From assembly GCF_007671675.1 (NCBI RefSeq), contig NZ_VCGW01000003.1, positions 372,001-436,000 on the forward strand: a stretch of 64,000 bases of DNA. The letters are read 5' to 3'. The translations under genes were made by a program, and so were the position numbers. Every line of letters begins with the position of its first letter. The first letter of the stretch is position 1. Source of the DNA: Marinobacter maritimus (GTDB taxonomy: Bacteria; Pseudomonadota; Gammaproteobacteria; Pseudomonadales; Oleiphilaceae). Below are positions 1,908 to 16,705 of the stretch, one piece after another. The notes beneath the pieces were generated by a model. That model had not been told where the DNA came from and searched no databases. It was given only the letters and a program-made list of their open reading frames with translations.

Positions 1908-3509
1908 CTATTGTGGGGCAGCGTGCCAGTAAGGCTCGCGCAGTTCCCGTTTAAGGATCTTGCCGATAGTAGAGCGGGGCAGCTCATCTCGGAATTCGAT
2001 GGCAGAGATGCGCTGGCTTTTGCCCAGTTTTTCGTTGGCCCATTCGAGTATCGCCGGCCCGGAATCCTTGTGCCCGGGCTTGAGAACGACCAGGCCTAAC
2101 GGTGTTTCACCCCACTGTTCGCTTGGAATACCGATAACCGCTGCATCGTCCACCGCTGGATGCGCCAGCAGCGCCTTTTCAAGATCAATCGCGTAAATAT
2201 TGAACCCACCGGAAATGATCATGTCCTTGCGGCGATCGAGAATATGAATGAAACCGTCCTCGTCGATTCGTCCCATATCTCCGCTACGATAAAACATATT
2301 GCCTTGTGGGCTTTGCCACAACATTTCCCGGGTCTGCTCCGGTCGGTTCACATAACCCCGCATCATCGAAATGGCACGGCCGACGAGCTCACCGATTTCG
2401 CCTTTTGGGAGTTCGCGGCCATTTTCGTCGATTACGCGCACTTCCGCGCCCTCCGTTGGGACGCCCACCGAACTCCACTTGTCCGGGTGCGCTGCACAGT
2501 CGAGACTGGTTGAAATGCCGCCCTCTGTGAGGCCGTAAACCTCCCGTAGATTGCCGGGCCAACGCGCCATGGCGTCGGCTATTACGTCGGGTCTCAGAGG
2601 TGCACTGGTGCAGAGTTTCAGCTTGAAGCTGGAGAGATCGAATCGTTCAAACTCCGTGTCGGCCAGGATCCTCTGGTATTGCACCGGCACCAGCATGGCG
2701 TGGGTCACACGGTGTGTTTCGGCCAGTTCCAGAAACCGCCGGGCGTCGAACTTCGCCATGATCACCAGGGTGCCGCCATGGAACAGCGTGGGTAACACTG
2801 AAACCAGTGTGGTGTTGGAGTACAACGGTGTTGAGACCAGGTTAACGGCATCGCCATCCAACCCGAAGCGGCTCATGCGCACCATCTGTCTCTGCCGGAA
2901 ACGGTAATCATGAAGGATGCCTTTCGGGGTGCCGGTCGTGCCGGAGCTATAGATGATGTTGAAGGCATCATCCATTGTTACATCTGCGGGCGCGGCTTCT
3001 GTAGAGGCATTGCCAAGCCAGTCGCTCAGTGTTTCGCCAATCCCTTCACCATTGTCATCCAGGGCAATAATGCGGTCGGCTGACAATCCCTTCAGCCCGG
3101 GTTGGAAGCTATGAAAGAGGTCCTGGTTTTTTTGCGACACAAACAGAAATTGGGCGCTGCAATCGGACAGCATCAGGCTCAGTGTTTCGGGACTGGCCAT
3201 GCCCGAAAGCGGCACCATGCAGCCGCCTGCAGTCAGTACGCCAAGATACAGCGCAACATAATCGGCACTGTTCTCCGACAACGCAGCAACTGAATCGCCG
3301 GTCCGCAGGCCTTCGTCTCTCAGGTGGTTGGCGATCTGGTTGGTCCGGTCCAGAAGGTCGCGCCAGCTCAAAGTGCCGTGTTCGCTGATCAATGCGGGAT
3401 GGTTTGCGCGGGTGTCGACAAACGACTGTATCTGGTGGCCGATGGCCTCCATGGGTTCATTTTGGGTTATGGGTGCATACACCGGCATTTTGCTCAGGTT
3501 ACTTTTCAT
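1908..3509 (-). CDS. AMP-forming acyl-CoA ligase (ANL superfamily)
   Basis: 533-residue adenylate-forming enzyme that activates a carboxylic acid with ATP and ligates it to CoA. The P-loop YSSGTTGTPKG is at residues 187-197, the acid-pocket/adenine motif YGLTEGG at 325-331, the YRSGDMGRIDEDG hinge region and DRRKDMIISGG follow, and the C-terminal catalytic lysine lies in PRSTIGKILKRE. All core motifs are intact and length is normal. The start at 3509 is taken for length; Met8 is an alternative. It is divergent from the SDR at 3670 (160-bp AT-rich gap) and convergent with the isomerase at 1151. It may activate the acid that the 3.7-11 kb genes process. Chain-length specificity cannot be read from the motifs. 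Confidence 0.88.
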   Translation of the reverse strand: MKSNLSKMPVYAPITQNEPMEAIGHQIQSFVDTRANHPALISEHGTLSWRDLLDRTNQIANHLRDEGLRTGDSVAALSENSADYVALYLGVLTAGGCMVPLSGMASPETLSLMLSDCSAQFLFVSQKNQDLFHSFQPGLKGLSADRIIALDDNGEGIGETLSDWLGNASTEAAPADVTMDDAFNIIYSSGTTGTPKGILHDYRFRQRQMVRMSRFGLDGDAVNLVSTPLYSNTTLVSVLPTLFHGGTLVIMAKFDARRFLELAETHRVTHAMLVPVQYQRILADTEFERFDLSSFKLKLCTSAPLRPDVIADAMARWPGNLREVYGLTEGGISTSLDCAAHPDKWSSVGVPTEGAEVRVIDENGRELPKGEIGELVGRAISMMRGYVNRPEQTREMLWQSPQGNMFYRSGDMGRIDEDGFIHILDRRKDMIISGGFNIYAIDLEKALLAHPAVDDAAVIGIPSEQWGETPLGLVVLKPGHKDSGPAILEWANEKLGKSQRISAIEFRDELPRSTIGKILKRELREPYWHAAPQ

Positions 3510-3669: not shown

Positions 3670-4464
3670 ATGGGGCGTTTTGATGGTCGAGTGGCCATTG
3701 TTACCGGGGCAGGTAGTGGTATCGGTCGGGCAACTGCCTTACGACTGGCCCGTGAGGGTGCCCGGGTGGTGATGGCGGATACTTCCGAGTCTGGCCTGGT
3801 TGAAACCGGGAATCTGATGCCCGCAAGCGCTGAACATCGCCGGCGCACCGTCAACGTTGCCGAGGAGGTTCAGGTAAAAGAACTGGTCAGCGAGGCTATT
3901 AAAGCGTTCGGAAAGATCGACATCCTGTGCAATATCGCAGGCATTGCGAGCATAGGTAAAGGCCATCCGCCGGTAACAGAAAACGAGCGAGATGAGTGGG
4001 ACAGTGTGTTGTCCGTTAACCTTGTTGGCACCATGCTGCTTATCAAACATGTTGCGCCCCACATGCAGGCCCGCAAACTCGGTTCTATTATTAACACTGC
4101 TTCGGTTGCTGGTATCCGGTCCGGCGCGGGAGGCAACGCTTACAGCGCCTCCAAGGCTGGAGTGATTAATCTCACCATGACCGCTGCATGTGATCTTGGC
4201 GCCGACAATGTTCGTGTGAACGCCGTGTGCCCGGGCCTCGTGGAGACCGGCATGACGAAACCGGTATTTGACTACGCCCGCGCCCATGAAAAAGCCCACA
4301 AGCTGGGCGCTCGCTGCGAACTCCGCCGTTATGGCAACCCGGAAGAAATCGCGGCGGCCATTCTGTTTTTTGCCAGTGACGATGCCAGCTATATCACCGG
4401 GCAAGCGCTGCCGGTAGATGGCGGCAATACTGCCTCTCTGAATCTGCCAGGAATGAAAGTGTAA
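3670..4464 (+). CDS. SDR-family oxidoreductase (short-chain dehydrogenase)
   Basis: Classical short-chain dehydrogenase/reductase of 264 residues. The dinucleotide-binding motif TGAGSGIG is at residues 12-19, the NIAG motif at 88-91, the catalytic Ser145 in INTAS, and the catalytic Tyr/Lys in YSASK (158-162). Asp37 at the end of strand beta-2 (VVMAD) favours NAD(H) over NADP(H). An AAGGAG ribosome-binding site precedes the ATG. The stop overlaps the start of the thioesterase gene (TAATG at 4462-4466), so the two are translationally coupled. Together with the second SDR at 6352 it probably oxidises or reduces a hydroxyl/keto group on an acyl-CoA intermediate; the actual substrate is unknown. 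Confidence 0.88.
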   Translation: MGRFDGRVAIVTGAGSGIGRATALRLAREGARVVMADTSESGLVETGNLMPASAEHRRRTVNVAEEVQVKELVSEAIKAFGKIDILCNIAGIASIGKGHPPVTENERDEWDSVLSVNLVGTMLLIKHVAPHMQARKLGSIINTASVAGIRSGAGGNAYSASKAGVINLTMTAACDLGADNVRVNAVCPGLVETGMTKPVFDYARAHEKAHKLGARCELRRYGNPEEIAAAILFFASDDASYITGQALPVDGGNTASLNLPGMKV

Positions 4465-4919
4465 TGAGCAAGCAAGAATTGTCTTCTGTCGATGGTGCTT
4501 ATGTAGATGGCACAGAGCTGCCGGGCTTTCATAACCTGCTCGGATACCGCCAGGCCTCCTGGGAGGAAGATGAAGCGGTTATTGCGCTGGAGCTGCAGCC
4601 GAGGCACCTGAATCTGGGCGGGGTTATCCACGGCGGTGTGCTTACCTCGCTGCTTGATATTGCCATGGCGCAAGCCGGCACACACTGTCCCTACCCGGGG
4701 CGGATGCGCAAAGCCATCACCCTGTCTTTAACCACAACGTTTACCGGCCAATGCTCCAGCGGCACCATTCGTGTAACCGGGCGCAAGCGGGCGGGTGGCA
4801 CGCGGATTTTCAATAGTACTGGCGAAGTCCATGACGACAAAGGCAACCTGCTTGCCATTGCCGAGGGCACGTTCCGGATTCGGTCTGGCAGCGACAAGCC
4901 CGAAGGCGTTCCTATCTGA
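4464..4919 (+). CDS. PaaI-type hotdog-fold acyl-CoA thioesterase
   Basis: Hotdog-fold protein of 151 residues. The hallmark is LNLGGVIHGGVLTSLLDIA (residues 49-67): the HGG loop (56-58) and Asp65 on the central helix match the catalytic arrangement of PaaI/4-hydroxybenzoyl-CoA thioesterase families. It probably hydrolyses an acyl-CoA, releasing CoA when intermediates build up. Its ATG overlaps the stop of the SDR gene (TAATG), indicating coupled expression. The acyl-CoA dehydrogenase gene follows after 74 bp with its own ribosome-binding site. The substrate is not evident from sequence. Confidence 0.85.
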   Translation: MSKQELSSVDGAYVDGTELPGFHNLLGYRQASWEEDEAVIALELQPRHLNLGGVIHGGVLTSLLDIAMAQAGTHCPYPGRMRKAITLSLTTTFTGQCSSGTIRVTGRKRAGGTRIFNSTGEVHDDKGNLLAIAEGTFRIRSGSDKPEGVPI

Positions 4920-4993
4920 TTTTCAGAACATTTAACAAAAGCCTGATCGGCGATGAAGACCGGTCAACGAATCATTATTAAAGAGGAAGCGAC

Positions 4994-6196
4994 ATGTTCG
5001 AGTTATCTGACAGAGTAAAAAAACTGCAGGCGCAGCTGAACGAGTTCATGGATGCGCACATCTATCCCAACGAACACACGCACCACGAGCAGATTGAAAA
5101 GGCAGAGAATCGTTGGGCGCCGGTTCCGATCATCGAAGAGCTGAAAGTGAAGGCGAAGGCCGAGGGTCTCTGGAATCTGTTTCTACCGGAGAGTGATTTG
5201 GGCGCCGGTCTGACCAACTTTGAATACGCCCATCTGTGCGAAATCATGGGTCGTTCTGAAATGGCACCGGAGGTGTTCAACTGCTCCGCGCCGGATACCG
5301 GCAACATGGAAACCATCGCGCGGTACGGCAATGAAGAACAGCAGGAACAGTGGCTTAAGCCTTTGCTGGCAGGTGAAATTCGTTCCTGTTTCTCCATGAC
5401 CGAGCCGGATGTGGCCTCCTCTGATGCCACCAATATTGCCTGTGAAATTCGGCGCGAAGGCGATGAATATGTGATCAACGGCAAAAAGTGGTGGTCTTCA
5501 GGTGCCATGACGACCTCGGCAAAAATTGCCATCGTAATGGGCAAGACCGATCCGACAGCGCCCAAGCATCAGCAGCAATCCATGATTCTGGTGCCGTTGG
5601 ATGCGCCCGGCGTGAAGCTGGTCCGCCCGCTGACAGTGTTTGGTTATGATCACGCACCTCACGGTCATGCAGAGGTTCATTACGAAAACGTGCGGGTTCC
5701 TGTTACCAATATGCTACTGGGTGAAGGGCGTGGTTTTGAAATCGCCCAGGGTCGTCTTGGGCCAGGTCGCATTCACCACTGCATGCGCACTATTGGTGTG
5801 GCTGAGCGTGCGTTGGAGCTGATGTGTAAGCGTGCCAACGAGCGCGAGGCATTCGGCAAGCCGCTGTCCAGCTTTGATTCTATCCGTAAGGACATTGCCC
5901 GTAGTCGCATCGAGATCGAGCAGGCGCGGCTGTTGACTCTGAAGGCTGCGCACATGATGGATACCGTGGGTAACAAGGTAGCTCGTCAGGAAATCGCCAT
6001 GATCAAGGTGATTGCTCCGAGCATGGCTTTGAAAGTGCTCGACCGTGCCATTCAGGTCCACGGTGGTGCCGGCGTGAGCCAGGACACCTTCCTTGCGTCA
6101 GCCTGGGCCAAGGTTCGGACATTGCGGTTGGCAGATGGCCCGGATGAGGTGCACCTGGATTCTGTTGCCAAGATTGAACTGCGTCAGTACCGCTAA
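4994..6196 (+). CDS. Acyl-CoA dehydrogenase, ACAD10/11-like
   Basis: FAD-dependent acyl-CoA dehydrogenase-fold protein of 400 residues. Seen in order: the N-terminal helical domain; the middle-domain flavin motif [16 protein letters not shown] (about 132-147); KWWSSGA; the C-terminal [16 protein letters not shown] and [11 protein letters not shown]; and [16 protein letters not shown] near 353. The end, [19 protein letters not shown], is characteristic of the subgroup containing the dehydrogenase domain of human ACAD10/ACAD11 and bacterial LvaC. GAGGAAG precedes the ATG. In ACAD11 this domain is fused to an APH-type kinase; here a free kinase gene lies 1.1 kb downstream (7287), so the two may act together on 4-hydroxyacyl-CoAs. 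Simple dehydrogenation is the alternative. Confidence 0.9.
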
Positions 6197-6217
6197 CCGA
6201 ATCGCACTTTTGGGGAA

Positions 6218-6323
6218 GAGCCGACGGGAAGAGCGCTCAGGGGCACGCTGTGAATACGTCCCTGTAGGCTTGTCAAAAACATCCGTGTTTTTGACATCCC
6301 CTGAGCGCTCTTCCCGCCGGCTC
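6218..6323. repeat. Long imperfect palindrome with nested hairpin (intergenic repeat element)
   Basis: The gap between the acyl-CoA dehydrogenase and the next SDR is almost filled by one palindrome. The outer arms 6218-6243 and 6298-6323 are complementary at 25 of 26 positions. Nested inside, 6271-6280 and 6287-6296 (TGTCAAAAAC / GTTTTTGACA) form a perfect 10-bp stem with a 6-nt loop. Between lies an unpaired stretch including TGAATACGTCCCTGTAGG. The precision and length suggest a dispersed repeat or structured RNA rather than a simple terminator. No second copy was seen in this window; I associate similar sequences with Marinobacter intergenic regions from memory only. Confidence 0.75.
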
Positions 6324-6351
6324 CCGCAGCTTTGAGTATGAGGATCACGAT

Positions 6352-7119
6352 ATGAACAATCCACTTTTTGACATGACCGGCAAGGTAGCCCTGATCACGG
6401 GTTCCACCAAAGGTATTGGCCGTTCAATTGCCGAAGAAATGGCCCGGCTGGGCGCTAAAGTTGTTATCTCCAGCCGCAAAGCCGATGCTTGTGAGCAGGT
6501 TGCGAATGAGCTGAAATCGCAAGGTTACGAGGCCATGGCCATACCCTGTCACGTCGGTAAAAAAGACGACCTGCAGAACCTGGTGAACAAGACAAACGAA
6601 GCCTGGGGCACTATCGATGTGCTCGTATGCAACGCCGCCACCAACCCCGTCTATGGCCCAACCTCCGAAATGACCGACGAGGCCTGGGACAAGATCATGG
6701 ACACTAACGTTAAAGGCTCGTTCTGGCTCACCAACATGGTGCTGCCGCAGATGGCGGAAAAAGGCGAGGGCGCCGTTGTGATGCTGTCCAGCATCGCCGG
6801 AATCCGTGGCAACACCACGATCGGAACTTACGGTGTTTCCAAGGCGGCCGAGGCGGCCCTGGCCCGGAATCTTGCAGTTGAATGGGGCCCGAAGGGTATT
6901 CGTATCAACAGCATCGCCCCGGGCCTTATCAAGACCGATTTTGCGAAAGCCCTGTGGGAAGACCCGGTGCGGGTCAAGCGCGCAGAAGATAAAACCCCGC
7001 TAAGACGAATCGGCGACCCGGTAGACATCGCCGGCCTGGCAGTCTTTTTGTCAACCAAGGCTAGTGCCTACATAACCGGCCAAACCATAGTAGCCGACGG
7101 CGGCGAAACCATCTGTTAA
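6352..7119 (+). CDS. SDR-family oxidoreductase (glucose/ribitol-type)
   Basis: 255-residue short-chain dehydrogenase. TGSTKGIG (16-23) binds the dinucleotide, the NAATN segment starts at Asn94, catalytic Ser147 lies in MLSSIAG, and Tyr160/Lys164 form YGVSK. The Ser-Arg-Lys after strand beta-2 (VVISSRKAD) favours NADP(H). The C-terminus ITGQTIVADGG is standard for the family. It resembles the SDR next to ACAD10/11-like and APH genes in other bacteria (LvaD-like position), so a 4-oxoacyl/4-hydroxyacyl reductase role is possible but inferred. GAGGATC precedes the ATG. It is flanked by two different hairpin elements (6218-6323 and 7148-7233). Confidence 0.88.
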   Translation: MNNPLFDMTGKVALITGSTKGIGRSIAEEMARLGAKVVISSRKADACEQVANELKSQGYEAMAIPCHVGKKDDLQNLVNKTNEAWGTIDVLVCNAATNPVYGPTSEMTDEAWDKIMDTNVKGSFWLTNMVLPQMAEKGEGAVVMLSSIAGIRGNTTIGTYGVSKAAEAALARNLAVEWGPKGIRINSIAPGLIKTDFAKALWEDPVRVKRAEDKTPLRRIGDPVDIAGLAVFLSTKASAYITGQTIVADGGETIC

Positions 7120-7147
7120 GCGATTAAGCACTGAATTCCGCCAAGGG

Positions 7148-7233
7148 CTGTGGGTGGTGAGGCTTTTCTGCAGGAAAAAATGTCTGAGCGCAGCGAGTTG
7201 TTTTTTCCGAAAGAAAAGCCTCACCACCCGCAG
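7148..7233 (-). repeat. Covarying hairpin element, copy A (reverse orientation)
   Basis: Outer arms 7148-7169 and 7212-7233 pair at 21 of 22 positions (the exception is a potential G-U). A 3x3 internal loop (7170-7172 / 7209-7211) follows, then an 8-bp inner stem GGAAAAAA/TTTTTTCC (7173-7180 / 7201-7208) and the 20-nt loop TGTCTGAGCGCAGCGAGTTG. The loop is the reverse complement of the loops in copies B (21560) and C (22934), so this copy is inverted relative to its co-directional flanking genes. It starts 29 bp after the SDR stop and ends 54 bp before the kinase start. Confidence 0.85.
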
Positions 7234-7286
7234 ACCGCTGCCCCCAAACAAAGGCCGCCACCTGATAACTAAAGGCAACAAAAACA

Positions 7287-8351
7287 ATGAGCATAACCCC
7301 AGAGCTGGTAACCGTCCTCCCAGCCCACAAATTCGATGAAGCCAGGCTCCTGTCCTGGCTCCAGCAAGCCATGCCAGGCTTCGGTAACCGCCTTGAGGTA
7401 AAACAGTTCCAGGGCGGTCAGTCCAACCCCACGTATCTGTTGGATACCGACAGCGGCCGATACGTTCTGCGCAAAAAACCACCCGGAAAAACTCTGCCCT
7501 CTGCTCACATGGTCGAGAGAGAGTACAAGGTAATCCGGGCACTCTCAGACAACACCAATTTTCCGGTGCCCAAGGCCAGAGTCCTGTGTGAAGACAGCGA
7601 GATCATTGGTACGCCCTTCTACGTGATGGACTTTCTGGAGGGCCGCATTGTCAGCCATTCCGCCTTGCGAGAGCTGGATCGTCAGGAAAGGCTGCCAGCC
7701 CACCACTCCGCCATCGACACACTCGCAGAACTGCACTCCGTTGATGTGAATGCCGTTGGCCTTGGCGATTACGGTCGCCCGGAAGGCTATGTGGCACGCC
7801 AGGTTTCGCGCTGGAGCAAACAGTATCTGGCAGCCAAAACCGACAACATGCCCGCCATGGACAAACTAATGGCGTGGCTGCCCGAAAATCTACCGTCCAC
7901 TGATGAATGCGCGATTGCTCACGGTGACTACCGTTTCGGCAACCTGATGCTGGCGCCAGACAAGCCCGAAGTGATCGCCGTGCTGGACTGGGAACTCTCA
8001 ACGCTCGGGCACCCGCTGGCGGACTTGGCTTATTATTGCCTGCCCTATCATCTACCGTTCGACATGCCGGGCATGCGCGGACTGCTGGGGGAAGATCTGG
8101 GCGCACTAGGTATACCGAGCGAGCAGGAAGCCATCGCTCGCTATTGCGCCAAAACAGGCCGCCAGGGCATTACAGACTGGCATGTGTATCTTGCGTTTTC
8201 GCTGTTCCGACTGGCGTCTATCGTTCAGGGTGTCTACAAACGGGCGCTTGACGGTAATGCCGCCAACGCCAATGCCCTGGAAGTGGGTAAGCGGGCCAGC
8301 ATGCTGGCGCAAACCGGCTGGGCGATTGCGAGTGCAGGTGAGCGGTTATGA
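7287..8351 (+). CDS. APH-fold phosphotransferase (ACAD10/11 kinase-domain / LvaA-like)
   Basis: 354-residue protein with the aminoglycoside-phosphotransferase/choline-kinase fold. FQGGQSNPTYLL (41-52) forms the nucleotide loop, LRKKP (61-65) carries the ATP lysine, HGDYRFGN (212-219) is the catalytic loop with Asp214 and Asn219, and VLDWELSTLGHPLAD (232-246) supplies the metal-binding Asp234. The long LDWELSTLGHPLADLAYY signature is typical of the subgroup fused to acyl-CoA dehydrogenases in animals (ACAD10/11) and of levulinate-pathway LvaA, which phosphorylates the hydroxyl of a 4-hydroxyacyl-CoA. That function is inferred here from family and from the ACAD at 4994. Its TGA overlaps the ATG of surE (ATGA). 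An antibiotic-resistance role is unlikely. Confidence 0.87.
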   Translation: MSITPELVTVLPAHKFDEARLLSWLQQAMPGFGNRLEVKQFQGGQSNPTYLLDTDSGRYVLRKKPPGKTLPSAHMVEREYKVIRALSDNTNFPVPKARVLCEDSEIIGTPFYVMDFLEGRIVSHSALRELDRQERLPAHHSAIDTLAELHSVDVNAVGLGDYGRPEGYVARQVSRWSKQYLAAKTDNMPAMDKLMAWLPENLPSTDECAIAHGDYRFGNLMLAPDKPEVIAVLDWELSTLGHPLADLAYYCLPYHLPFDMPGMRGLLGEDLGALGIPSEQEAIARYCAKTGRQGITDWHVYLAFSLFRLASIVQGVYKRALDGNAANANALEVGKRASMLAQTGWAIASAGERL

Positions 8352-9127
8352 ACGCCCCCATGGTTCGACGCATCCTTATTACCAACGACGACGGCATTAA
8401 CGCTCCGGGGTTGGCGCGGCTGGAAAAAATTGCCCGCAATCTGGCGGAGGAGGTATGGATCGTTGCTCCGGAGCACGATCGCAGCGGGGCAGGCCAGAGC
8501 ATATCGATACACCATCCGTTACGGGTCTATGAGGCCGGGGATAAACGCTACGCGGTTTCCGGCACACCGGCGGATTGCGTGCTCTACTCTCTGGCCCAGT
8601 GGTTTGGCGAAGCGCCTCCGGATCTGGTGCTGTCTGGCGTCAATTGCGGTGCCAACATCAGTGACTCGGTGCAGTATTCGGGTACGGTCGGCGCAGTGCT
8701 CAGCGCTCACCACATGAACATTCCCGCCATCGCTCTCAGCCAGGCCTTTTTGTCTCGCGAAGGAATTGACTGGTCTCCGGTTGAACAATTTGGCGAAGCG
8801 GTAATCCGGAAGCTATGGCAGCCGGGCGAAGCTCTGGCCTGGAACGTTAACTTTCCCGCCTGTGAGGTCGGAGACATTGTGTCTGCGCGCTGGTGTAAGC
8901 AGTCAAGCGGCTCCATCCAGCAAGCCCGCCTGAAAGCCGGCCAGGACTCTCGCAGCCTGCCATACTGGTGGCTGGGGTTTGACCGCAGCTCGCGGCACAT
9001 CGTAGCGCCGGATTCCGATGTTGCTGTGCTGAGAGACAGGGCGATTGCTATTACGCCGTTAAGGCACGAAGCCCCCCTGCGCGGGGAAACCAAAGAATTT
9101 GATCTGTCCGCAATGCTGGCAGACTGA
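8348..9127 (+). CDS. surE: 5'/3'-nucleotidase SurE
   Basis: SurE-family metal-dependent phosphatase of 259 residues. The N-terminal ILITNDDGINAPG (residues 9-21) contains the Asp-Asp metal site; PEHDRSGAGQSIS (41-53) and LSGVNCGANISDSVQYSGTVGA (about residues 98-119) are the other metal/phosphate loops, so the active site is intact. SurE removes phosphate from nucleoside monophosphates and short polyphosphates. In most gammaproteobacteria surE sits with pcm and rpoS; here its start overlaps the stop of a kinase gene in a catabolic operon, which suggests a second, specialised copy acting on a phosphorylated metabolite or CoA-derived nucleotide. That specialisation is inference. Confidence 0.88.
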   Translation: MNAPMVRRILITNDDGINAPGLARLEKIARNLAEEVWIVAPEHDRSGAGQSISIHHPLRVYEAGDKRYAVSGTPADCVLYSLAQWFGEAPPDLVLSGVNCGANISDSVQYSGTVGAVLSAHHMNIPAIALSQAFLSREGIDWSPVEQFGEAVIRKLWQPGEALAWNVNFPACEVGDIVSARWCKQSSGSIQQARLKAGQDSRSLPYWWLGFDRSSRHIVAPDSDVAVLRDRAIAITPLRHEAPLRGETKEFDLSAMLAD

Positions 9128-9152
9128 TTTAAACCTGAAGAGAACAATAATC

Positions 9153-10823
9153 ATGTTCACACGCCACTATGCGGTCTGGCCTAAAGAGTTGCCCAAGACC
9201 ATGACTCTGCCGAAAACCAGTGTTTTTACCAACCTGGAAATCTCGGCCCTGCGCTACCCCGAGCATACGGCCATTATTTTTTACGATGCGCCCATCACAT
9301 ATCGCCGCCTGCTGGCGGAAGTGGAGGCCATGGCCGGTTATCTGCAGGCACAGGGCGTGAAAAAGGGTGATCGGGTACTGCTGTATATGCAGAACTCGCC
9401 GCAGTATGTAATTTCTTACTATGCGATTTTGCGAGCGGATGCAGTGGTGATTCCGGTCAATCCCATGAACCGGGCCGCAGAACTCGAACACTTTATTGCG
9501 GATACCCGCTCGGCCGTCTGCCTGGCGGGCCAGGAGCTGGCTGAATACATTGCGCCGATGTTGGAAAGCACCGATCTGGAGCAGGTGGTGGTGGCTTCAT
9601 ATAACACCTACATCGAGCCTGGTACCGACCTGGACCTGCCTGCGGAAGTGGCAAGCCCGGCCTGGTCGGGCGATGTTTCAGGCCTGGTGAGCTGGGAAAG
9701 CGCCATCGCGGCGGGCCATAGCCCCCAAAAACATATGGCTGGCCCTGAAGACCTGGCGGTGATTCCCTATAGCTCGGGTACAACCGGTGCACCAAAAGGC
9801 TGCATGCACACTCATCGCTCGGTGATGGCAACGGCGGTACATCGTGTGTTCTGGAACCTGAGCACGTCAGACAGCGTACAGCTGGCCACTCTGCCATTTT
9901 TCCATGTAACCGGCATGACAGGTTCCATGAATGGGCCGATTTTCGCAGGTTCCACTTCGGTGATTATGACCCGCTGGGATCGAACCACTGCATCAAGGCT
10001 CATTGAGCGCTACAAGGTCACCGCCTGGACCAATATTGTCACCATGGCTGTGGACTTTCTTTCCAATCCGGATATTGCCAAATACGACCTCTCCAGCCTC
10101 AACATGATTGGTGGCGGAGGCGCTGCCATGCCGGTCGCCGTGGCGGAGAAGCTGAAAAAGTTGACGGGCCTGAACTACATCGAGGGTTATGGCCTGTCAG
10201 AAACCATGGCCGCGACCCATATCAACCCCAACGCAAAGCCCAAAGCCCAGTGCCTGGGTATTCCGGTGTTTGATGTGGACAGCCGGATTATCGATGTGGA
10301 TACCCTCGAAGAGAAAAGCCCGGGTGAAACCGGTGAGATCGTCTCCTGTGGCCCGCAAGTAACCATTGGCTACTGGAATCGGCCGGCCGAAACCGATGCG
10401 GCGTTTATCGAAATTGACGGCAAGCGCTTTTTCCGCACCGGTGATCTCGCGTATTACGACGAAGAGGGTTATTTCTTCATGGTCGATCGCCTTAAGCGAA
10501 TGATCAACGCATCCGGATTCAAAGTGTGGCCATCGGAAGTGGAGGGTCTGATGTACCGGCACCCTGACATTCATGAGGTGTGCATTATCTCAGCGCCGGA
10601 TCCCAAGCGGGGTGAAACCGTGAAGGCCTGTATCGTGCTCACACCAGAAGGGGAAGGCACCACCAGCGTTGAGGACATTACAGGTTGGTGCAAGGAACAG
10701 ATGGCAGTCTATAAAGTACCTACCATTGTTGAATTTGTGAGTGCGCTGCCAAAATCCCCCACAGGCAAGCTGATGTGGCGAGCGCTTCAGGACGAAGAAT
10801 GGAAGGGAAGGGACAAGTCATGA
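9153..10823 (+). CDS. AMP-forming fatty-acyl-CoA ligase (LvaE-like)
   Basis: ANL-superfamily acid:CoA ligase, 556 residues from the chosen ATG at 9153, which has GAAGAG upstream; an earlier in-frame ATG at 9099 would overlap surE and is less likely. IPYSSGTTGAPKGCMHTH is the P-loop, GYGLSETMAATH the A5 motif, FFRTGDLAYYDEEGYFFMVDRLKRMINASGFKVWP the hinge and A8 region read in pieces, and PKSPTGKLMWR carries the catalytic lysine. FKVWPSEVE is typical of medium/long-chain ligases such as LvaE of the levulinate pathway. It would activate the acid consumed by the kinase and dehydrogenase. Its stop overlaps the start of the PanE-like gene (ATGA). Confidence 0.9.
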   Translation: MFTRHYAVWPKELPKTMTLPKTSVFTNLEISALRYPEHTAIIFYDAPITYRRLLAEVEAMAGYLQAQGVKKGDRVLLYMQNSPQYVISYYAILRADAVVIPVNPMNRAAELEHFIADTRSAVCLAGQELAEYIAPMLESTDLEQVVVASYNTYIEPGTDLDLPAEVASPAWSGDVSGLVSWESAIAAGHSPQKHMAGPEDLAVIPYSSGTTGAPKGCMHTHRSVMATAVHRVFWNLSTSDSVQLATLPFFHVTGMTGSMNGPIFAGSTSVIMTRWDRTTASRLIERYKVTAWTNIVTMAVDFLSNPDIAKYDLSSLNMIGGGGAAMPVAVAEKLKKLTGLNYIEGYGLSETMAATHINPNAKPKAQCLGIPVFDVDSRIIDVDTLEEKSPGETGEIVSCGPQVTIGYWNRPAETDAAFIEIDGKRFFRTGDLAYYDEEGYFFMVDRLKRMINASGFKVWPSEVEGLMYRHPDIHEVCIISAPDPKRGETVKACIVLTPEGEGTTSVEDITGWCKEQMAVYKVPTIVEFVSALPKSPTGKLMWRALQDEEWKGRDKS

Positions 10824-11755
10824 ACGATAAACCCAGAATTCTGATTGTCGGTGCCGGCGCTATAGGCAGCTTCTACGGCGCCATTCTGAAGAAAGCCGGT
10901 TGCTCGGTGAGCACCGTTTTGCGTTCAGGTTATGAAACGGTCAGGGCCCAGGGTATTCGTATCACCAGCCCGCTTGGAGATCTGTCCTACGAACCCGATC
11001 ATGTATACCGTGATGGTGATTTGCCGGAGGAATCGCCTGACTTTCTCATTCTGTGCGTGAAGGTTTTGCCCGGTGTGGACCGGGTTGCACTGGTCGCGCC
11101 CTGGATGGGCGAGAAAACCTGCCTGGTACTGATCGAAAACGGGCTGGATATCGAGAGAGAGCTGGCCCATGCCTACCCGGATAACCCGCTTATAAGTTGT
11201 CTGGCCTTTATTGCGGCAAGCCGCACAGAATCTGGTGTTGTGGAGCATAAAGCGTACGGCAAGCTGGTGATGGGGCGTTACCCTGAAGGCGTTGACGAGA
11301 ACTGCCGGGTGTTGTCTCAGCTGTTTATAGAGGGCGGTATCAGGATCGATCTGACCGAGCGTGTGGTGGGTGAGCGCTGGCGCAAGTGTTTATGGAATAC
11401 TCCGTTCAACCCCTTGTCTGTTATTGCCAACGGAGCGGACACCCTTACCATTCTGGATACTGAGGGCGGTGAGGACCTGATTCGAGCCATGATGCGTGAG
11501 GTGATGGTTGTGGCTGCCGCCGAAGGCTATCCAATGGATGAAGCATTAATCGATCAGAACATCGAGGGCACCCGAAAAATGCCCGCCTACAAGAACAGTA
11601 TGGCACTGGATTACCTGAACGGCCGCCCGATTGAACGTGAGGCGGTTCTGGGTAATGTGGTGGCATTAGCCAAGCGCCGTGGCCTTTCAGTGCCTCACCT
11701 GAATACGGTGTTGGTGACTCTGAAGATGCGTGCAGCGCTGGAGGGGCGTGAATAG
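10820..11755 (+). CDS. Ketopantoate reductase family protein (PanE/ApbA-like)
   Basis: NADP-dependent 2-oxo acid reductase of the PanE/ApbA family, 311 residues from the ATG at 10820 that overlaps the upstream ligase stop (ATGA). The Rossmann motif is ILIVGAGAIGSFYG (7-20); ERWRKCLWNTPFNPLSVI contains the family's catalytic Lys and Asn region, and IEREAVLGNVVALAKRRG is the conserved C-terminal helix. No pantothenate biosynthesis gene lies nearby. Being the last gene of a catabolic operon suggests reduction of a branched 2- or 3-oxo acid rather than ketopantoate itself. A terminator-like hairpin follows at 11773. Confidence 0.82.
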   Translation: MNDKPRILIVGAGAIGSFYGAILKKAGCSVSTVLRSGYETVRAQGIRITSPLGDLSYEPDHVYRDGDLPEESPDFLILCVKVLPGVDRVALVAPWMGEKTCLVLIENGLDIERELAHAYPDNPLISCLAFIAASRTESGVVEHKAYGKLVMGRYPEGVDENCRVLSQLFIEGGIRIDLTERVVGERWRKCLWNTPFNPLSVIANGADTLTILDTEGGEDLIRAMMREVMVVAAAEGYPMDEALIDQNIEGTRKMPAYKNSMALDYLNGRPIEREAVLGNVVALAKRRGLSVPHLNTVLVTLKMRAALEGRE

Positions 11756-11821: not shown

Positions 11822-12277
11822 TCAGACTACATACATAGCGAGGTTTTCTGCTACGCAGGCCGGCTTGTCCTGGTGGTTTATTTCCACGGTGGTTTTGTAA
11901 GTCGCCAAGGTTCTTTTGTTATCCACCGGTATAACGTCTACCAGCTCGACTTTAGTGCGGATCTCCGAACCCACTGGCACGGCCGCTGGGAATCGCAGCT
12001 TATTCAGCCCGTAATTAATCGTGGCCTTCGTGCCCGTTACCCGCAGCGCCTGCGGGTTAAGCCGGGACATCAGAGATACCGTCAGGTACCCATGGGCTAC
12101 CGGGCTTTTCCACGGCGACTCCCGCTTTGCCCGCTCCACATCCACGTGAATCCACTGGTGGTCACCCGTGGCCTCGGCAAAGGCTCCGATCATCTCCTGC
12201 GTGATCGTGAGCCAGGGGCTGTAGCAACACAGACTTCCTTTGTGGTTAACGAGATCGTCGAGTTGTATTTCCACCAT
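11822..12277 (-). CDS. MaoC-like (R)-specific enoyl-CoA hydratase
   Basis: 151-residue hotdog protein of the MaoC/hydratase-2 family. The catalytic motif FAEATGDHQWIHVD (33-46), with the Asp and His that add water to trans-2-enoyl-CoA, is followed by the conserved SPVAHGYLT. The product would be an (R)-3-hydroxyacyl-CoA. AAAAGGGG stands 6-7 bp upstream of its ATG on the minus strand. It is 12 bp downstream of the class II aldolase-like gene, so the two are probably co-transcribed; together they could hydrate and then cleave or rearrange an enoyl-CoA, but no such joint reaction is established for this pair. Confidence 0.88.
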   Translation of the reverse strand: MVEIQLDDLVNHKGSLCCYSPWLTITQEMIGAFAEATGDHQWIHVDVERAKRESPWKSPVAHGYLTVSLMSRLNPQALRVTGTKATINYGLNKLRFPAAVPVGSEIRTKVELVDVIPVDNKRTLATYKTTVEINHQDKPACVAENLAMYVV

Positions 12278-12289
12278 GTTGTGCCCCTT

Positions 12290-13051
12290 TTATACTGCGT
12301 AACCTGGGTTTTTGCTGTCGAGAAGCCGAAGCAGTGCCGGCCAGGTGAGCGCCGCTGCGCTGCCCAGGGCTTGGGACTGATCCGCAGTCGTTTTGATGGC
12401 CTGCTCGGAGGGCGTCCACACCGGGCCACAACTCTGTGCTTTAACTTGTATCTCACAGGCCTTCATCAGGAAATACAGGTACGTAAAGGTTTCCGGAACG
12501 TCTTTACCTGCGGTGAGAACGCCATGATTGCGCAGCATCATCATGGACTTGTCGCCGAGATCCCGTATCAGACGCTCACGCTCATCCAGGTTGAGAGCCA
12601 CGCCTTCATAGTCGTGGTAACTCAGGTGCGCCAGGCATAGCATGGCGGTCTGGCTCAGGGGTAGCAGGCCGTCTCTGTGGGCTGAAACTGCCACGCCATC
12701 TGGTGCATGAAGATGCATAACGGCACCTGCATCGTCACGCCCCATGTGTACGGCGCTGTGGATAGTAAAGCCGGCTGGATTCACCCGGCCAAGACCGCCG
12801 GATTCTACTACCTGCCCGTCTCTGTCCACCTTCACCAGAGAGGAGGCAGTAATCTCGTGGAACAGCAGGCCGTAGGGATTGATCAGGAAATGATGTTCAG
12901 GGCCAGGTACCCGGGCAGAGAGGTGGGTAAAAACCAGGTCATCCCACCCGAACAGGGCGACAAGACGATAGGCCGCCGCTAACTGGCTACGAACCTGCCA
13001 TTCAGCCTCTCTCAGGGTATTTGCGTCGGTGTTTGAGGTGTTTGTTGTCAT
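12290..13051 (-). CDS. Class II aldolase/adducin family protein
   Basis: 253-residue zinc-dependent class II aldolase-fold protein. The metal-binding pair is visible in VMHLHAPDG, and the third ligand region in MMLRNHGVLTAGKDVPE. The sugar-phosphate-binding residues of fuculose/ribulose-phosphate members are not obvious, so the substrate is probably not a sugar phosphate. Family members cleave or decarboxylate hydroxy-oxo compounds. It lies upstream of the MaoC gene on the minus strand and is separated from the acyl-CoA dehydrogenase operon by a strong terminator at 13082-13107, so it begins a separate transcript. Confidence 0.85.
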   Translation of the reverse strand: MTTNTSNTDANTLREAEWQVRSQLAAAYRLVALFGWDDLVFTHLSARVPGPEHHFLINPYGLLFHEITASSLVKVDRDGQVVESGGLGRVNPAGFTIHSAVHMGRDDAGAVMHLHAPDGVAVSAHRDGLLPLSQTAMLCLAHLSYHDYEGVALNLDERERLIRDLGDKSMMMLRNHGVLTAGKDVPETFTYLYFLMKACEIQVKAQSCGPVWTPSEQAIKTTADQSQALGSAAALTWPALLRLLDSKNPGYAV

Positions 13052-13081
13052 GCGTTGTTCACCTTGTTATTCACTGTGCAT

Positions 13082-13107
13082 AAAAAAGGGGGTGGCAAGC
13101 CACCCCC
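13082..13107 (-). terminator. Rho-independent terminator of the acyl-CoA dehydrogenase operon
   Basis: Read on the minus strand, GGGGGTGGC-TT-GCCACCCCC is a perfect 9-bp stem followed directly by six Ts. It lies 54 bp past the stop of the minus-strand dehydrogenase gene ending at 13162. Confidence 0.9.
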
Positions 13108-13161
13108 GAAAAAGACCTTTGACTGATAAGAAGGAGATCTCAGGCTCACTGAACAGGGAGT

Positions 13162-14304
13162 TTAGCTTGCTTGTAAAAGGGATGCGTAGCGCTCCAGATG
13201 GAAATCATCGTCGCCCAGCTGGTGGTTGATCATGATCAGGCGCTTGGCGTAATGGGCAAAGTTGTATTCCCATGTCATGCCAATGCCGCCGTGGGACTGT
13301 ATGCCCTGTTCTGAAATGAACTGCCCGCTGCGACCGATAACGTTTTTGGCGGCAGCCAGCACGCGGCGGCGCTCACCGCTCTGCTCTTCGTCCGCCACGC
13401 TGGCAGCCAGAGTAGCCATGGAGCGAGCCTGCTCCAGTTCAGACATCATGTCGACCATGCGGTGCTGCAGTACCTGAAACTTGCCGATCGGCACGCCAAA
13501 TTGCTTGCGCTGTTTAAGGTAATCCAGAGTCAGCTCGTTGGCGACTTCCATAACCCCGACGGCTTCGGCACACAGTGCTGCGATTGCGCGGCCTGCCTGA
13601 TACTCAATCACCTCAGCGGCCTTACCTTCCTCGCCCATCAAGGCATCGGCACTTACCTGAACGTTGTTCAGGGTAAGGTCGCAGCCTTTGGAACCGTCAA
13701 TGGTTGGATAAACCCGGCGTTCAATTCCGGCGGTATCCGCTTTAAGAGCAAACAGGCTGATTCCGCCTGCATCTCGGACATCACCGGACGTGCGTGCTGA
13801 TACCAGAATAACGTCAGCGCAATGCCCGCCAATGACCACAGCCTTGCGGCCGTTGAGCTGGTAACCGCCGTCTTTCTTCTCGGCGCGGGTTTCTACGTTG
13901 TTTAGATCGTAAAAGCTTTGGGGCTCTTGGAGTGCAACCGCTGCTTGCACCTCGCCACTGGCAATCCCGCCCAGCCAGGTTTCTTTCTGGCTGTCGTTGC
14001 CGGCCTGGCCAATAAGGCCGCCGCCAAGAATCACAGATTGCAGGTAGGGTTCAAGACACAGACCACGACCCAGTTCGGTCATGACCGACTGCACTTCCAC
14101 ACCGCCGCCGCCAAAGCCGCCAAGCTCTTCAGAAAAAGGAACGGCTGTCAGGCCCAGTTCACTGAGCTGCTTCCAGAAATCTACGCTGAACCCGGCGTCT
14201 GTCTCACTGAACTCAAGACGCTTTTCAAAACTGTATTCACCGCGTACCAGACGGGCCACGGTGTCCTGCAGCATCTGCTGCTCTTCATTGAGTCGGAAAT
14301 CCAT
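13162..14304 (-). CDS. Acyl-CoA dehydrogenase (small partner of a tandem pair)
   Basis: 380-residue acyl-CoA dehydrogenase-fold protein. The middle domain is divergent: where most members have T-E-P-x-x-G-S-D it has ALQEPQSFYDLNN, and instead of a W-I-T-N motif it has AVVIGGHCAD. The C-terminal FAD-contact region KQFGVPIGKFQVLQHRMVDM and SHGGIGMTWEYNFAHYAKR are well kept. This split of features is what one sees in one subunit of heteromeric dehydrogenases acting on bulky side chains (ChsE-type pairs). AAGGAG precedes the ATG, 10 bp from the stop of the partner gene at 14315. It is the last gene of the gcdH-led operon and is followed by the terminator at 13082. Confidence 0.88.
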   Translation of the reverse strand: MDFRLNEEQQMLQDTVARLVRGEYSFEKRLEFSETDAGFSVDFWKQLSELGLTAVPFSEELGGFGGGGVEVQSVMTELGRGLCLEPYLQSVILGGGLIGQAGNDSQKETWLGGIASGEVQAAVALQEPQSFYDLNNVETRAEKKDGGYQLNGRKAVVIGGHCADVILVSARTSGDVRDAGGISLFALKADTAGIERRVYPTIDGSKGCDLTLNNVQVSADALMGEEGKAAEVIEYQAGRAIAALCAEAVGVMEVANELTLDYLKQRKQFGVPIGKFQVLQHRMVDMMSELEQARSMATLAASVADEEQSGERRRVLAAAKNVIGRSGQFISEQGIQSHGGIGMTWEYNFAHYAKRLIMINHQLGDDDFHLERYASLLQAS

Positions 14305-14314
14305 GGTCGTCTCC

Positions 14315-15511
14315 TTAAAGCCCGAGAATCATTTTCGACACGATATTTTTCTGGATCTCGTTGGATCCGCCGAAAATCGAGAGCTTACGGTTATTGAAAT
14401 ACTGCGCAGAGAGAGGCGCAGCGTTCTCGTCTGACAGGAACTCGCCGTCATAATCCTGACTCAGTTCTTCTTCCACAAACGGAATGGCGTAAGGCCCCAA
14501 GGCTCTGCGTGCCAGGTCATTAATAGACTGGCGGATTTCCGTGCCTTTCACCTTCAGCATGGAGCTTTCGGCGCCGGGCATGCCGCCGCCTTCAACTGCG
14601 GCAATAATGCGCAGGTTGCTGATAGTTGCTGCCATAAGGTCAATCTCGACTTTGGCAATGCGCTGGCTGAACGCCGTATCTTCAATCAGCGGGCGACCAT
14701 TCTTGATGCGGCGTGAGGCAAGCGCTTTCAGGTGGGACAGCGCTGCCTTGGACAAGCCGATACCGGCCAGGCCTGTGCGCTCGTAGGTCAGCAGGAACTT
14801 GGCGTAAGTCCAGCCTTTGTCTTCTTCACCAACCAGATTTTCAACCGGAACCTTTACGTCTTCAAAGAAGACTTCGTTCACTTCATGCTCACCGTCAAGG
14901 GTGATGATCGGGCGCACGGAAATACCAGGCGTGTTCATGTCGATCAGCAGGAAGGAGATGCCGGCCTGGGCTTTAACCTCGGTGTTGGTGCGCACCAGGC
15001 AAAAAATCATATTGGCGTACTGGCCAAGGGTGGTCCAGGTCTTCTGGCCATTCACAAGGTAGTGGTCGCCCTGGCGAACTGCACGGGTCTTCAGGGAGGC
15101 CAGGTCGGAACCGGCACCGGGTTCGGAGTAACCCTGACACCACCAATCTTCACCGCTGAGGATGCGTGGCAGATACGTCTGCTTCTGCTCTTCGTTGCCG
15201 AATTTGATGATAACCGGCGCCACCATGTTTACGCCAAATGGCACAGAGCGCGGCACGCCGTAACGACAGGACTCTTCATCCCAGATGTGCTTTTGAACAG
15301 GCGTCCACTCAACACCACCGTACTCTTCCGGCCAATGCGAGGCGTACCAGCCCTGTGCGCTGAGAATTTTCTGCCAACGCTGGTGGTCCTCTTTGGAGAG
15401 GTGGCGGAAGCCTTTCACTTTGGCGGCGATGTCTGCCGGCAGTTTTTCATCCAGGAACGCTCGCACTTCGTCGCGAAAAGCGAGCTCCTCAGTGGTGTAG
15501 TTCATATTCAT
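14315..15511 (-). CDS. Acyl-CoA dehydrogenase (large partner of a tandem pair)
   Basis: 398-residue acyl-CoA dehydrogenase. It has the intact middle-domain motif GYSEPGAGSDLASLKT and the KTWTT motif that holds the flavin and acyl group, and at the C-terminus SIFGGSNEIQKNIV, where the Glu near the end could be the base. It lacks the C-terminal QFGxPIxxFQ FAD loop in usual form, having RRIKNGRPLIEDTAFSQRIA instead. The neighbour at 13162 has the complementary set, so the pair may form an alpha2beta2 enzyme with shared FAD sites. GAGG lies upstream of the ATG. The substrate is unknown; a branched or cyclic acyl-CoA is plausible. Confidence 0.88.
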   Translation of the reverse strand: MNMNYTTEELAFRDEVRAFLDEKLPADIAAKVKGFRHLSKEDHQRWQKILSAQGWYASHWPEEYGGVEWTPVQKHIWDEESCRYGVPRSVPFGVNMVAPVIIKFGNEEQKQTYLPRILSGEDWWCQGYSEPGAGSDLASLKTRAVRQGDHYLVNGQKTWTTLGQYANMIFCLVRTNTEVKAQAGISFLLIDMNTPGISVRPIITLDGEHEVNEVFFEDVKVPVENLVGEEDKGWTYAKFLLTYERTGLAGIGLSKAALSHLKALASRRIKNGRPLIEDTAFSQRIAKVEIDLMAATISNLRIIAAVEGGGMPGAESSMLKVKGTEIRQSINDLARRALGPYAIPFVEEELSQDYDGEFLSDENAAPLSAQYFNNRKLSIFGGSNEIQKNIVSKMILGL

Positions 15512-15535
15512 TGAGTAGCCTCGTCGTGTTTGGCT

Positions 15536-16705
15536 TCAGCTAAACGCTGCGATACCGGTCTGGCCACGGCCAAGAATCAGGGCGTGGACGTCATGGGTGC
15601 CTTCGTAGGTATTCACCGCTTCGAGGTTCATAACGTGGCGGATCACGTGGTATTCGTCGGAGATACCATTGCCGCCGTGCATATCGCGGGCAACCCGTGC
15701 GATATCCAGCGCTTTGCCACAGTTATTGCGTTTGAGCAGAGAAATTGCATCTGGCGTCGCGTCGCCGCTATCCATCATGCGACCCAGTTGCAGCGCGGCC
15801 TGCAGGCCCAGAGTGATTTCGGTCTGCATATCGACCAGCTTTTTCTGGATCAACTGGTTGGCAGCCAAAGGCCTGCCGAACTGCTTGCGCTCAAGGGTGT
15901 AATTACGAGCGGCGTGCCAGCAGAATTCAGCTGCGCCCAATGAACCCCAGCTGATGCCAAAGCGGGCTTTATTCAGGCAACTGAAAGGCCCCTTCAAGCC
16001 TTCTACGTCCAGCTTGTTTTCGTTTGGTACAAACACTTCATCCATAAAGATGGAGCCGGTGTCTGATGCGCGCAGAGAGAACTTGCCTTCAATCTTCGGG
16101 GTGTCGAGGCCTTTGGCGCCTTCACGCTCGATAACAAAACCAGTCACCTTGCCGTCCAGCTTGGCCCAAACCACGAAAATGTCTGCAATAGGGGAGTTGG
16201 TGATCCAGGTTTTGGATCCGCTCAGCAGGTAGCCACCATCCACTTTCTTGGCGCGGGTCTCCATGCTACCCGGATCAGAGCCGTGATTCGGCTCGGTCAG
16301 GCCGAAGCAGCCAACGAGTTCTCCGGAAGCCAGCTTGGGCAGAATGCGTTTTTTGAGGGCTTCCTGGCCGAAGGCGTGAATCGGGTGAATGACCAATGAG
16401 GATTGAACACTCAGTGCGGAGCGATAGGCAGAATCAACACGCTCAACCTCGCGGGCGATCAGTCCGTAGCAGACGTGATTGAGGCCCGGGCCGCCGTATT
16501 CTTCCGGCAGGGTAGCGCCCAGCATGCCAAGATCGCCCATGTCGGTGAAAATGCTGCGATCGAACTTTTCGTGGCGGTTGGCCTCGAGGATGCCGGGCAT
16601 CAGGCGCTGATCACAAAAGCCGCGAATGCTGTCCCGAACCTGACGTTCAGTTTCGTCCAGCTGCTTGTCAAACTGCAGCAAGTCGTCCCAAGGTGCAGAA
16701 GCCAT
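15536..16705 (-). CDS. gcdH: Glutaryl-CoA dehydrogenase-like acyl-CoA dehydrogenase
   Basis: 389 residues, the usual length for GcdH, which oxidises and decarboxylates glutaryl-CoA to crotonyl-CoA, passing electrons to [22 protein letters not shown] and [18 protein letters not shown] form the flavin-binding middle domain; [17 protein letters not shown] and [16 protein letters not shown] follow; the catalytic base is Glu368 in [16 protein letters not shown], a strong GcdH signature. GAGGAG precedes the ATG. It is the first gene of a three-dehydrogenase minus-strand operon and divergent from the transporter at 16978. Glutaryl-CoA would arise from lysine, odd-chain dicarboxylates or aromatic acids. 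There is no adjacent GcdR-type LysR gene. Confidence 0.9.

Follow-up and report, generated by a model that had tools for sequence, protein, structure and literature searches.

What role can a SurE-family phosphatase have when its gene stands directly behind that of a putative 4-hydroxyacyl-CoA kinase? The question is raised by a run of genes in Marinobacter maritimus, found in a window of 64,000 nucleotides (the whole stretch of DNA that was analysed, positions 372001-436000 of contig NZ_VCGW01000003.1 in a 4.35-Mb genome; coordinates below are those of the window). From 3670 to 11755 on the + strand, the run encodes in this order a short-chain dehydrogenase/reductase (SDR), a hotdog thioesterase, an acyl-CoA dehydrogenase (ACAD), a second SDR, an APH-fold kinase, SurE, an acyl-CoA ligase and a ketopantoate-reductase-like (PanE-like) protein. 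We found that no other gene accompanies this kinase clade as constantly as SurE. The whole run probably serves to break down a carboxylic acid with a 4-hydroxy (or 4-oxo) group, and SurE would act in it as the phosphatase for stalled phospho-intermediates. While the enzyme kind is already known, the SurE partnership is the new part, and our searches of openly licensed PMC papers gave no report of a SurE-kinase pair.

A kinase and a dehydrogenase of ACAD10/11 type

A first-pass annotation, made from the sequence alone, had placed an ACAD10/11-like dehydrogenase, an SDR, a kinase with the ACAD11-kinase signature and a ligase on one strand, with a thioesterase, SurE and a PanE-like protein added. 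All of them are present on the + strand, Pfam agrees, and the naming of the kinase and the dehydrogenase is borne out by sequence matches and active-site residues. The best PDB matches of the kinase were 3dxp (8.7e-105) and mouse ACAD11 (4.6e-87), with 45.5% identity to the mouse kinase domain over 341 residues, and those of the ACAD were mouse ACAD11 (1.4e-149; 58.9% identity over 394 residues), human ACAD11 (3.9e-148) and 4hr3 (3.4e-136). An identity as aminoglycoside, thiamine or sugar kinase was rejected, with NCBIfam models scoring far below their cut-offs (APH_3p 34.7 against 205 bits); the clustering with sugar or aminoglycoside kinases that the first pass had named as a counter-sign was not seen.

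The residues on which catalysis depends in the mouse enzyme can be followed through both proteins. Kinase D214 and N219 align with the catalytic D220 and N225, the former being the residue mutated to A (HGA) in the deposited structure 8v3u, and the HGD....N motif is present in 80 of 80 kinases. R171 aligns with the CoA-contacting R176. An Arg next to the helix-C Glu is also present, as R78; by hand count it falls at mouse position 84, whereas the second CoA-contacting Arg of the mouse enzyme is R86. In the ACAD, D381 aligns with D753, the catalytic residue that is Asp in place of Glu and is mutated to N (LAN) in 8v3v, and LADGPDEVH is found in 67 of the 69 cluster ACADs. R254 and H262-C-M-R265 align with mouse R626 and H634-C-M-R637, and passages of PMC12440821 give R626, H634 and R637 as phosphate-site residues of ACAD11; the stretch R-L-G-P-G-R-x-H-H-C-M-R is kept in 69/69 cluster ACADs. 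P92 aligns with the faP helix-breaking proline (its equivalence to human P463 is a hand count), and a simple AP..FN pattern at this site occurs in 50/69.

Both sequence and active-site residues therefore support the assignment of the two proteins to the ACAD10/11 kind. For ACAD10/11 and their bacterial relatives, a conversion of 4-hydroxyacyl-CoA through 4-phosphoacyl-CoA to 2-enoyl-CoA is described in parts of PMC12440821 and PMC11342911, and the latter reports, in the part drawn on here, that ACAD10 domains can be replaced in vitro by bacterial relatives from another species. By analogy with ACAD10/11 and the Lva enzymes, the chemistry of this module is likely to be the same.

SurE is the constant neighbour of the kinase

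A scan of named records gave at least 80 loci, of which 79 were annotated (L208, which has no kinase open reading frame (ORF), was left out) and 64 had full flanks. Neighbours were annotated with our own ORF caller and BLAST against the proteins of the window or of a second module of the same genome (L040, described below), a procedure that misses partners unlike these, and all counts for these loci hold among the matches listed. SurE stands directly after the kinase in 74 of the 79. As for the other five, two end within 250 bp of the kinase (L202 and L229), two lack SurE (L227 and L239) and one has SurE adjacent on the opposite strand (L224). The kinase/SurE loci belong to Marinobacter, Mangrovitalea, Stutzerimonas, Halopseudomonas/Pseudomonas, Alcanivorax/Alloalcanivorax and Salinisphaera, and further to Ectothiorhodospiraceae, Aquisalimonas and a Lysobacterales metagenome-assembled genome; one record named Endozoicomonas groups with Salinisphaera.

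Among the loci with full flanks, SurE was present in 61/64, SDR2 in 59/64, the ACAD in 57/64 and the ligase in 55/64, followed by the thioesterase (40/64), SDR1 (32/64), a LivK-like binding protein (27/64) and the PanE-like protein (9/64). The stop codon of the kinase overlaps the nearest start codon of SurE (ATGA or GTGA) in 36 of 74 loci. SurE also comes straight after the kinase in 14/15 other Marinobacter loci and in 10/10 other loci of the order. The pairing is thus more than chance, because the run is conserved in 14/15 Marinobacter loci and in 74/79 of the named loci listed. SurE was indeed present as the first pass had it; its description as an addition falls short for what is the most constant neighbour of the kinase clade.

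The same linkage is seen when whole genomes are compared. For 81 Marinobacter genomes, counted by hand with at least 65% identity defining the kinase-type SurE and with broken frames in the kinase or SurE (G035, G054) counted as present, the kinase-type SurE occurs in 48 of the 50 genomes that have the kinase (it is absent from G003 and G023) and in none of the 31 that do not. A distant SurE (29-44% identity) is found in 80/81, as is some kinase at E < 0.001, the window type being present in 50/81.

The kinase tree was built after the removal of 45 near-identical sequences from 140 rows, and all 42 of its SurE-linked rows fall inside one SurE kinase clade (support 98/92). Loci without SurE within 4 kb number 61, of which 53 are outside this clade and 8 inside, so that SurE is found within 4 kb in 0/53 related kinase loci outside it. 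Similarly, the fetched stretches of 30 loci of the order at 47-56% identity contain no SurE, and 9 of them have a histidine phosphatase. Kinase and SurE distances are correlated (r 0.908, n = 75), with 0/500 permutations as high.

The cluster SurE keeps its catalytic centre

All 75 cluster SurEs examined have D14, D15, S46 and N99, S46 being counted with the catalytic or metal residues. Parts of PMC3567009 and PMC8475336 name as functional residues the DD motif (D8/D9), a loop that starts at residue 39, and the metal Asn. At position 107, which immediately precedes the Y-S-G-T motif, the cluster proteins have S (72), T (two) or A (one), and 17 comparison SurEs have D (11) or E (six), a set that includes extra stand-alone copies; the acidic residue is thus lost in 75/75. 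D106 and R229 are fixed in all 75. An intact catalytic centre with an altered loop suits a phosphatase that would act on a different substrate.

The cluster SurEs form a single branch (SH-aLRT 93) separate from the housekeeping copy, and the nearest outside branch holds six extra SurE genes from f209, f18 and f238 genomes; alphaproteobacteria were considered as a candidate source of the kinase-type SurE. A housekeeping truD-surE-pcm SurE is also encoded in this genome (contig C11); the window SurE is 32.0% identical to it, and on this identity and its own tree branch the reading as a stray housekeeping copy was rejected. Extra stand-alone SurE genes outside kinase clusters, 42-43% identical to the window SurE, were also observed in Pseudomonas-family genomes (L112, L113).

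A proposed route with SurE as phosphatase

In the route that we favour, the ligase would convert a 4-hydroxy or 4-oxo acid to its acyl-CoA, an SDR would interconvert the oxo and hydroxy forms, and the APH kinase would place a phosphate on the 4-hydroxyl group of this thioester. Elimination of that phosphate by the ACAD10/11-type flavoenzyme would then give 2-enoyl-CoA for beta-oxidation. SurE, co-produced with the kinase, would return or clear stalled 4-phosphoacyl-CoA, or the 4-phospho-acid from its hydrolysis, and the thioesterase of the cluster may assist in this. According to passages of PMC11342911, cells expressing ACAD10 show 4-phosphohexanoate beside the CoA ester; a dead-end phospho-acid therefore does form. 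Most likely, SurE is a phosphatase dedicated to the phosphorylated intermediate or to such dead-end products. A LivHMGFK-type ABC transporter (Pfam), which follows the ligase in many loci and not in the window, points to the uptake of an organic acid.

Several observations weigh against this proposal. The sister relation of mouse ACAD11 to the clade has a support of 97/54 and involves a long branch. Four Alcanivorax-group loci (L070, L071, L072, L074) have no ACAD beside the kinase; their genomes do encode such ACADs elsewhere. SurE is missing from the two Marinobacter loci L227 and L239, likewise from G003 and G023, and is not found with the same-clade kinases L107 and L108 or the paralogues L058 and L086. 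Since some kinase loci are without it, SurE is dispensable in some.

A second module and the histidine-phosphatase partners

The same genome contains a second kinase/ACAD module, missed at first pass, on contig C7 (L040), which encodes an ACAD, an SDR, a kinase, a histidine phosphatase and an SDR. Identity to the window proteins is 32.9% for the kinase of this module and 56.5% for its ACAD. It has in common with the window run an ACAD, SDRs, a kinase and a phosphatase-fold gene directly after the kinase. The partner however is a PF00300 histidine phosphatase with Ser replacing the second His, where the window has SurE. The second His of histidine phosphatases is catalytic. It is Ser in 24 of 24 kinase-partner histidine phosphatases (22/22 aligned and 2/2 on plasmids), including L040:9640-10329, and in the alignment the Ser stands opposite the His of CobC 3hjg; 22 of these 24 were found by likeness to one already with Ser, and the HISP-labelled L245 and L258 lie outside the 24. 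The replacement suggests weak or no catalysis by these partners.

Plasmid kinases with ACADs and SDRs and without SurE were found in Bosea (in the order thioesterase, ACAD, SDR, kinase, SDR), in Caballeronia and Sulfitobacter, both with a histidine phosphatase, and in Methylobacterium and Ruegeria. Therefore, the backbone is common and SurE is clade-specific.

Could SurE then be a regulator or scaffold of the kinase and not mainly a phosphatase, in the manner of LvaB of P. putida or of the HAD domain of ACAD10? Passages of PMC6692424 describe LvaB as a required protein that binds LvaA, the ACAD10 HAD domain is described in part of PMC11342911 as restraining the kinase with negligible phosphatase activity, and the related kinases have the Ser-type partners just described. 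However, the four catalytic and metal residues of SurE that are kept in every cluster protein would be needless for a pure scaffold, and we consider this explanation unlikely.

Returning to SurE as an active phosphatase, the Ser-type histidine phosphatases and the degenerate HAD domain of ACAD10 (in passages of PMC11342911) suggest a recurrent use of phosphatase-fold partners, among which SurE would be the intact one. Tentatively, and with less confidence than in the route itself, a phosphatase-fold partner might generally belong to the 4-hydroxyacyl-CoA kinase/ACAD system as its third component, with three or more independent recruitments: as the HAD domain fused in ACAD10, as a histidine phosphatase that has lost its second His beside several bacterial kinase clades, and as SurE in the clade of Marinobacter, Alcanivorax, Stutzerimonas and Salinisphaera. 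Together with its partner, the kinase would then work as a proofreading or feedback unit against the build-up of toxic or dead-end phospho-acyl-CoA, and SurE would be the catalytically intact version of the partner.

SurE and the acyl-CoA ligase

Another explanation is that SurE is a plain nucleotidase for the AMP that the acyl-CoA ligase releases. The SurE of E. coli hydrolyses 5′- and 3′-nucleotides (in part of PMC8475336), in the window the ligase gene comes right after that of SurE, and among the matches listed a ligase is near in 61 of 74 SurE loci. In the other 13 the ligase is absent nearby, nine of them with at least 8 kb downstream, and SurE is still with the kinase, which makes the role less likely; moreover, removing AMP would cost energy, and the genome already has the truD-surE-pcm SurE. 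We regard this explanation as quite improbable.

Very little speaks for a kinase with some other phosphate acceptor, working in another catabolic pathway next to an ordinary dehydrogenase: the family may hold other functions, with 19 of the 30 loci of the order at 47-56% identity having no such ACAD within 4 kb, yet in this clade 57 of 64 full loci among the matches listed have the ACAD adjacent, and its HHCMR signature is in 69/69 cluster ACADs.

The gene run and its surroundings

The features of the run are listed in Table 1. SDR1, upstream of the thioesterase, is part of the same run in Marinobacter, and the position of the divergent ligase is conserved in the flank of many Marinobacter loci. 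ATGA overlaps join the kinase stop to the SurE start and the ligase stop to the PanE-like start.

Table 1. Features of the gene run and its flank in the window
Feature	Position	Strand	Evidence or remark
Divergent acyl-CoA ligase upstream of the run, candidate pathway member	1908-3509	-	AMP-binding 4.8e-76
SDR1, SDR oxidoreductase	3670-4464	+	adh_short_C2 1.3e-64 (Pfam)
Hotdog-fold thioesterase (PaaI/4HBT type)	4464-4919	+	TIGR00369 50.2 bits (cut-off 36.6); 4HBT 4.4e-6
ACAD10/11-type acyl-CoA dehydrogenase, predicted phosphate elimination from 4-phosphoacyl-CoA to 2-enoyl-CoA	4994-6196	+	Mouse ACAD11 8v3u 1.4e-149; Pfam acyl-CoA dehydrogenase domains
Palindromic intergenic element between ACAD and SDR2, 26-nt arms	6218-6323	not assigned	
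SDR2, SDR oxidoreductase, LvaD-like position	6352-7119	+	NF005559 261.1 bits (cut-off 215); Pfam adh_short
Palindromic repeat element, 36-nt arms, REP-like, dispersed	7145-7236	not assigned	14 further similar genome sites
APH-fold kinase, predicted 4-hydroxyacyl-CoA kinase	7287-8351	+	PF01636 1.2e-50; 3dxp 8.7e-105; ACAD11 4.6e-87
SurE-family phosphatase, paired with the kinase	8348-9127	+	PF01975 2.1e-54
AMP-forming acyl-CoA ligase	9153-10823	+	NF006181 long-chain-fatty-acid--CoA ligase 866.9 bits (cut-off 705); Pfam AMP-binding
Ketopantoate-reductase-like (PanE-like) protein, looser run member	10820-11755	+	Pfam ApbA/ApbA_C

The run is adjoined on the - strand, at 11822-16705, by genes for a MaoC-like protein, a class II aldolase and three ACADs, and in Salinisphaera loci ECH, two ACADs and PanE are joined directly to the kinase module. 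A likely membrane protein of 455 aa at 16978-18345 has no Pfam match at E <= 1e-6. In Pseudomonas-family loci (L242-L244, L257, L259-L261), an ACAD10/11-type ACAD stands apart from any such kinase, mostly beside an ORF read as a LysR regulator, and in one Pseudomonas-family genus such an ACAD occurs in 117/119 genomes.

What the pairing would mean

In mammals, ACAD10 and ACAD11 handle 4-hydroxy fatty acids. Why ACAD10 has a phosphatase-like domain becomes a question for simple knockouts and assays in a bacterial clade whose kinase is linked, at the gene level, to what appears to be an intact phosphatase. Should the phosphatase role hold, SurE, which is usually viewed as a nucleotidase, would gain a metabolic partner. 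The module would also mark a widespread route of hydroxy-acid uptake and breakdown in marine oil- and lipid-degrading bacteria.

Comparison with known systems

Like the window, the P. putida lva operon (LvaA-E) clusters a kinase, an ACAD, an SDR and a CoA ligase (in passages of PMC6692424). The window differs from it by the absence of LvaB, by SurE right after the kinase, by a long-chain-type ligase and by its gene order, the last as the first pass had read it. The lack of an LvaB-like small protein, also remarked then, holds for the surroundings of the kinase: at 4464-10823 no gap between genes exceeds 167 bp (7120-7286), which could not hold the gene of a 12-kDa protein. Among the genes examined at 1-12 kb of the window, neither a symporter nor a DUF485 gene was seen. 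That the module is the levulinate (lva) pathway itself is hardly credible, for although the same enzyme kinds are present, there is no space for LvaB and no symporter or DUF485 gene among those examined, the ligase scores as long-chain type, and the second module resembles the P. citronellolis set more (as far as described in passages of PMC6692424). A search of Pseudomonas-family genomes for an lva operon found stand-alone ACADs and separate kinases, and no such operon. By its gene layout, the module in the window is distinct from the lva operon. Of the variant pathway with another substrate suggested at first pass, the differing layout stands, and another substrate is plausible.

Also comparable are the lva cluster of P. 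citronellolis LA18T (described in passages of PMC6692424) and the Caballeronia pNK84 cluster, which have, as the window does, a kinase, an ACAD, an SDR and a phosphatase-family gene by the kinase, and no LvaB; their phosphatase however has the histidine-phosphatase fold, unrelated to SurE.

Both domains of animal ACAD10 and ACAD11 are recognisable in the window proteins, with catalytic and phosphate-binding residues kept. In animals they form one bifunctional protein, whereas the window has two separate proteins and no HAD domain, and encodes SurE, the thioesterase, SDRs and the ligase alongside. Finally, the window SurE has its fold and catalytic residues in common with the canonical truD-surE-pcm nucleotidase, from which it differs by its linkage to the kinase and by Ser, Thr or Ala at position 107 of the cluster proteins, where the 17 comparison SurEs have Asp or Glu.

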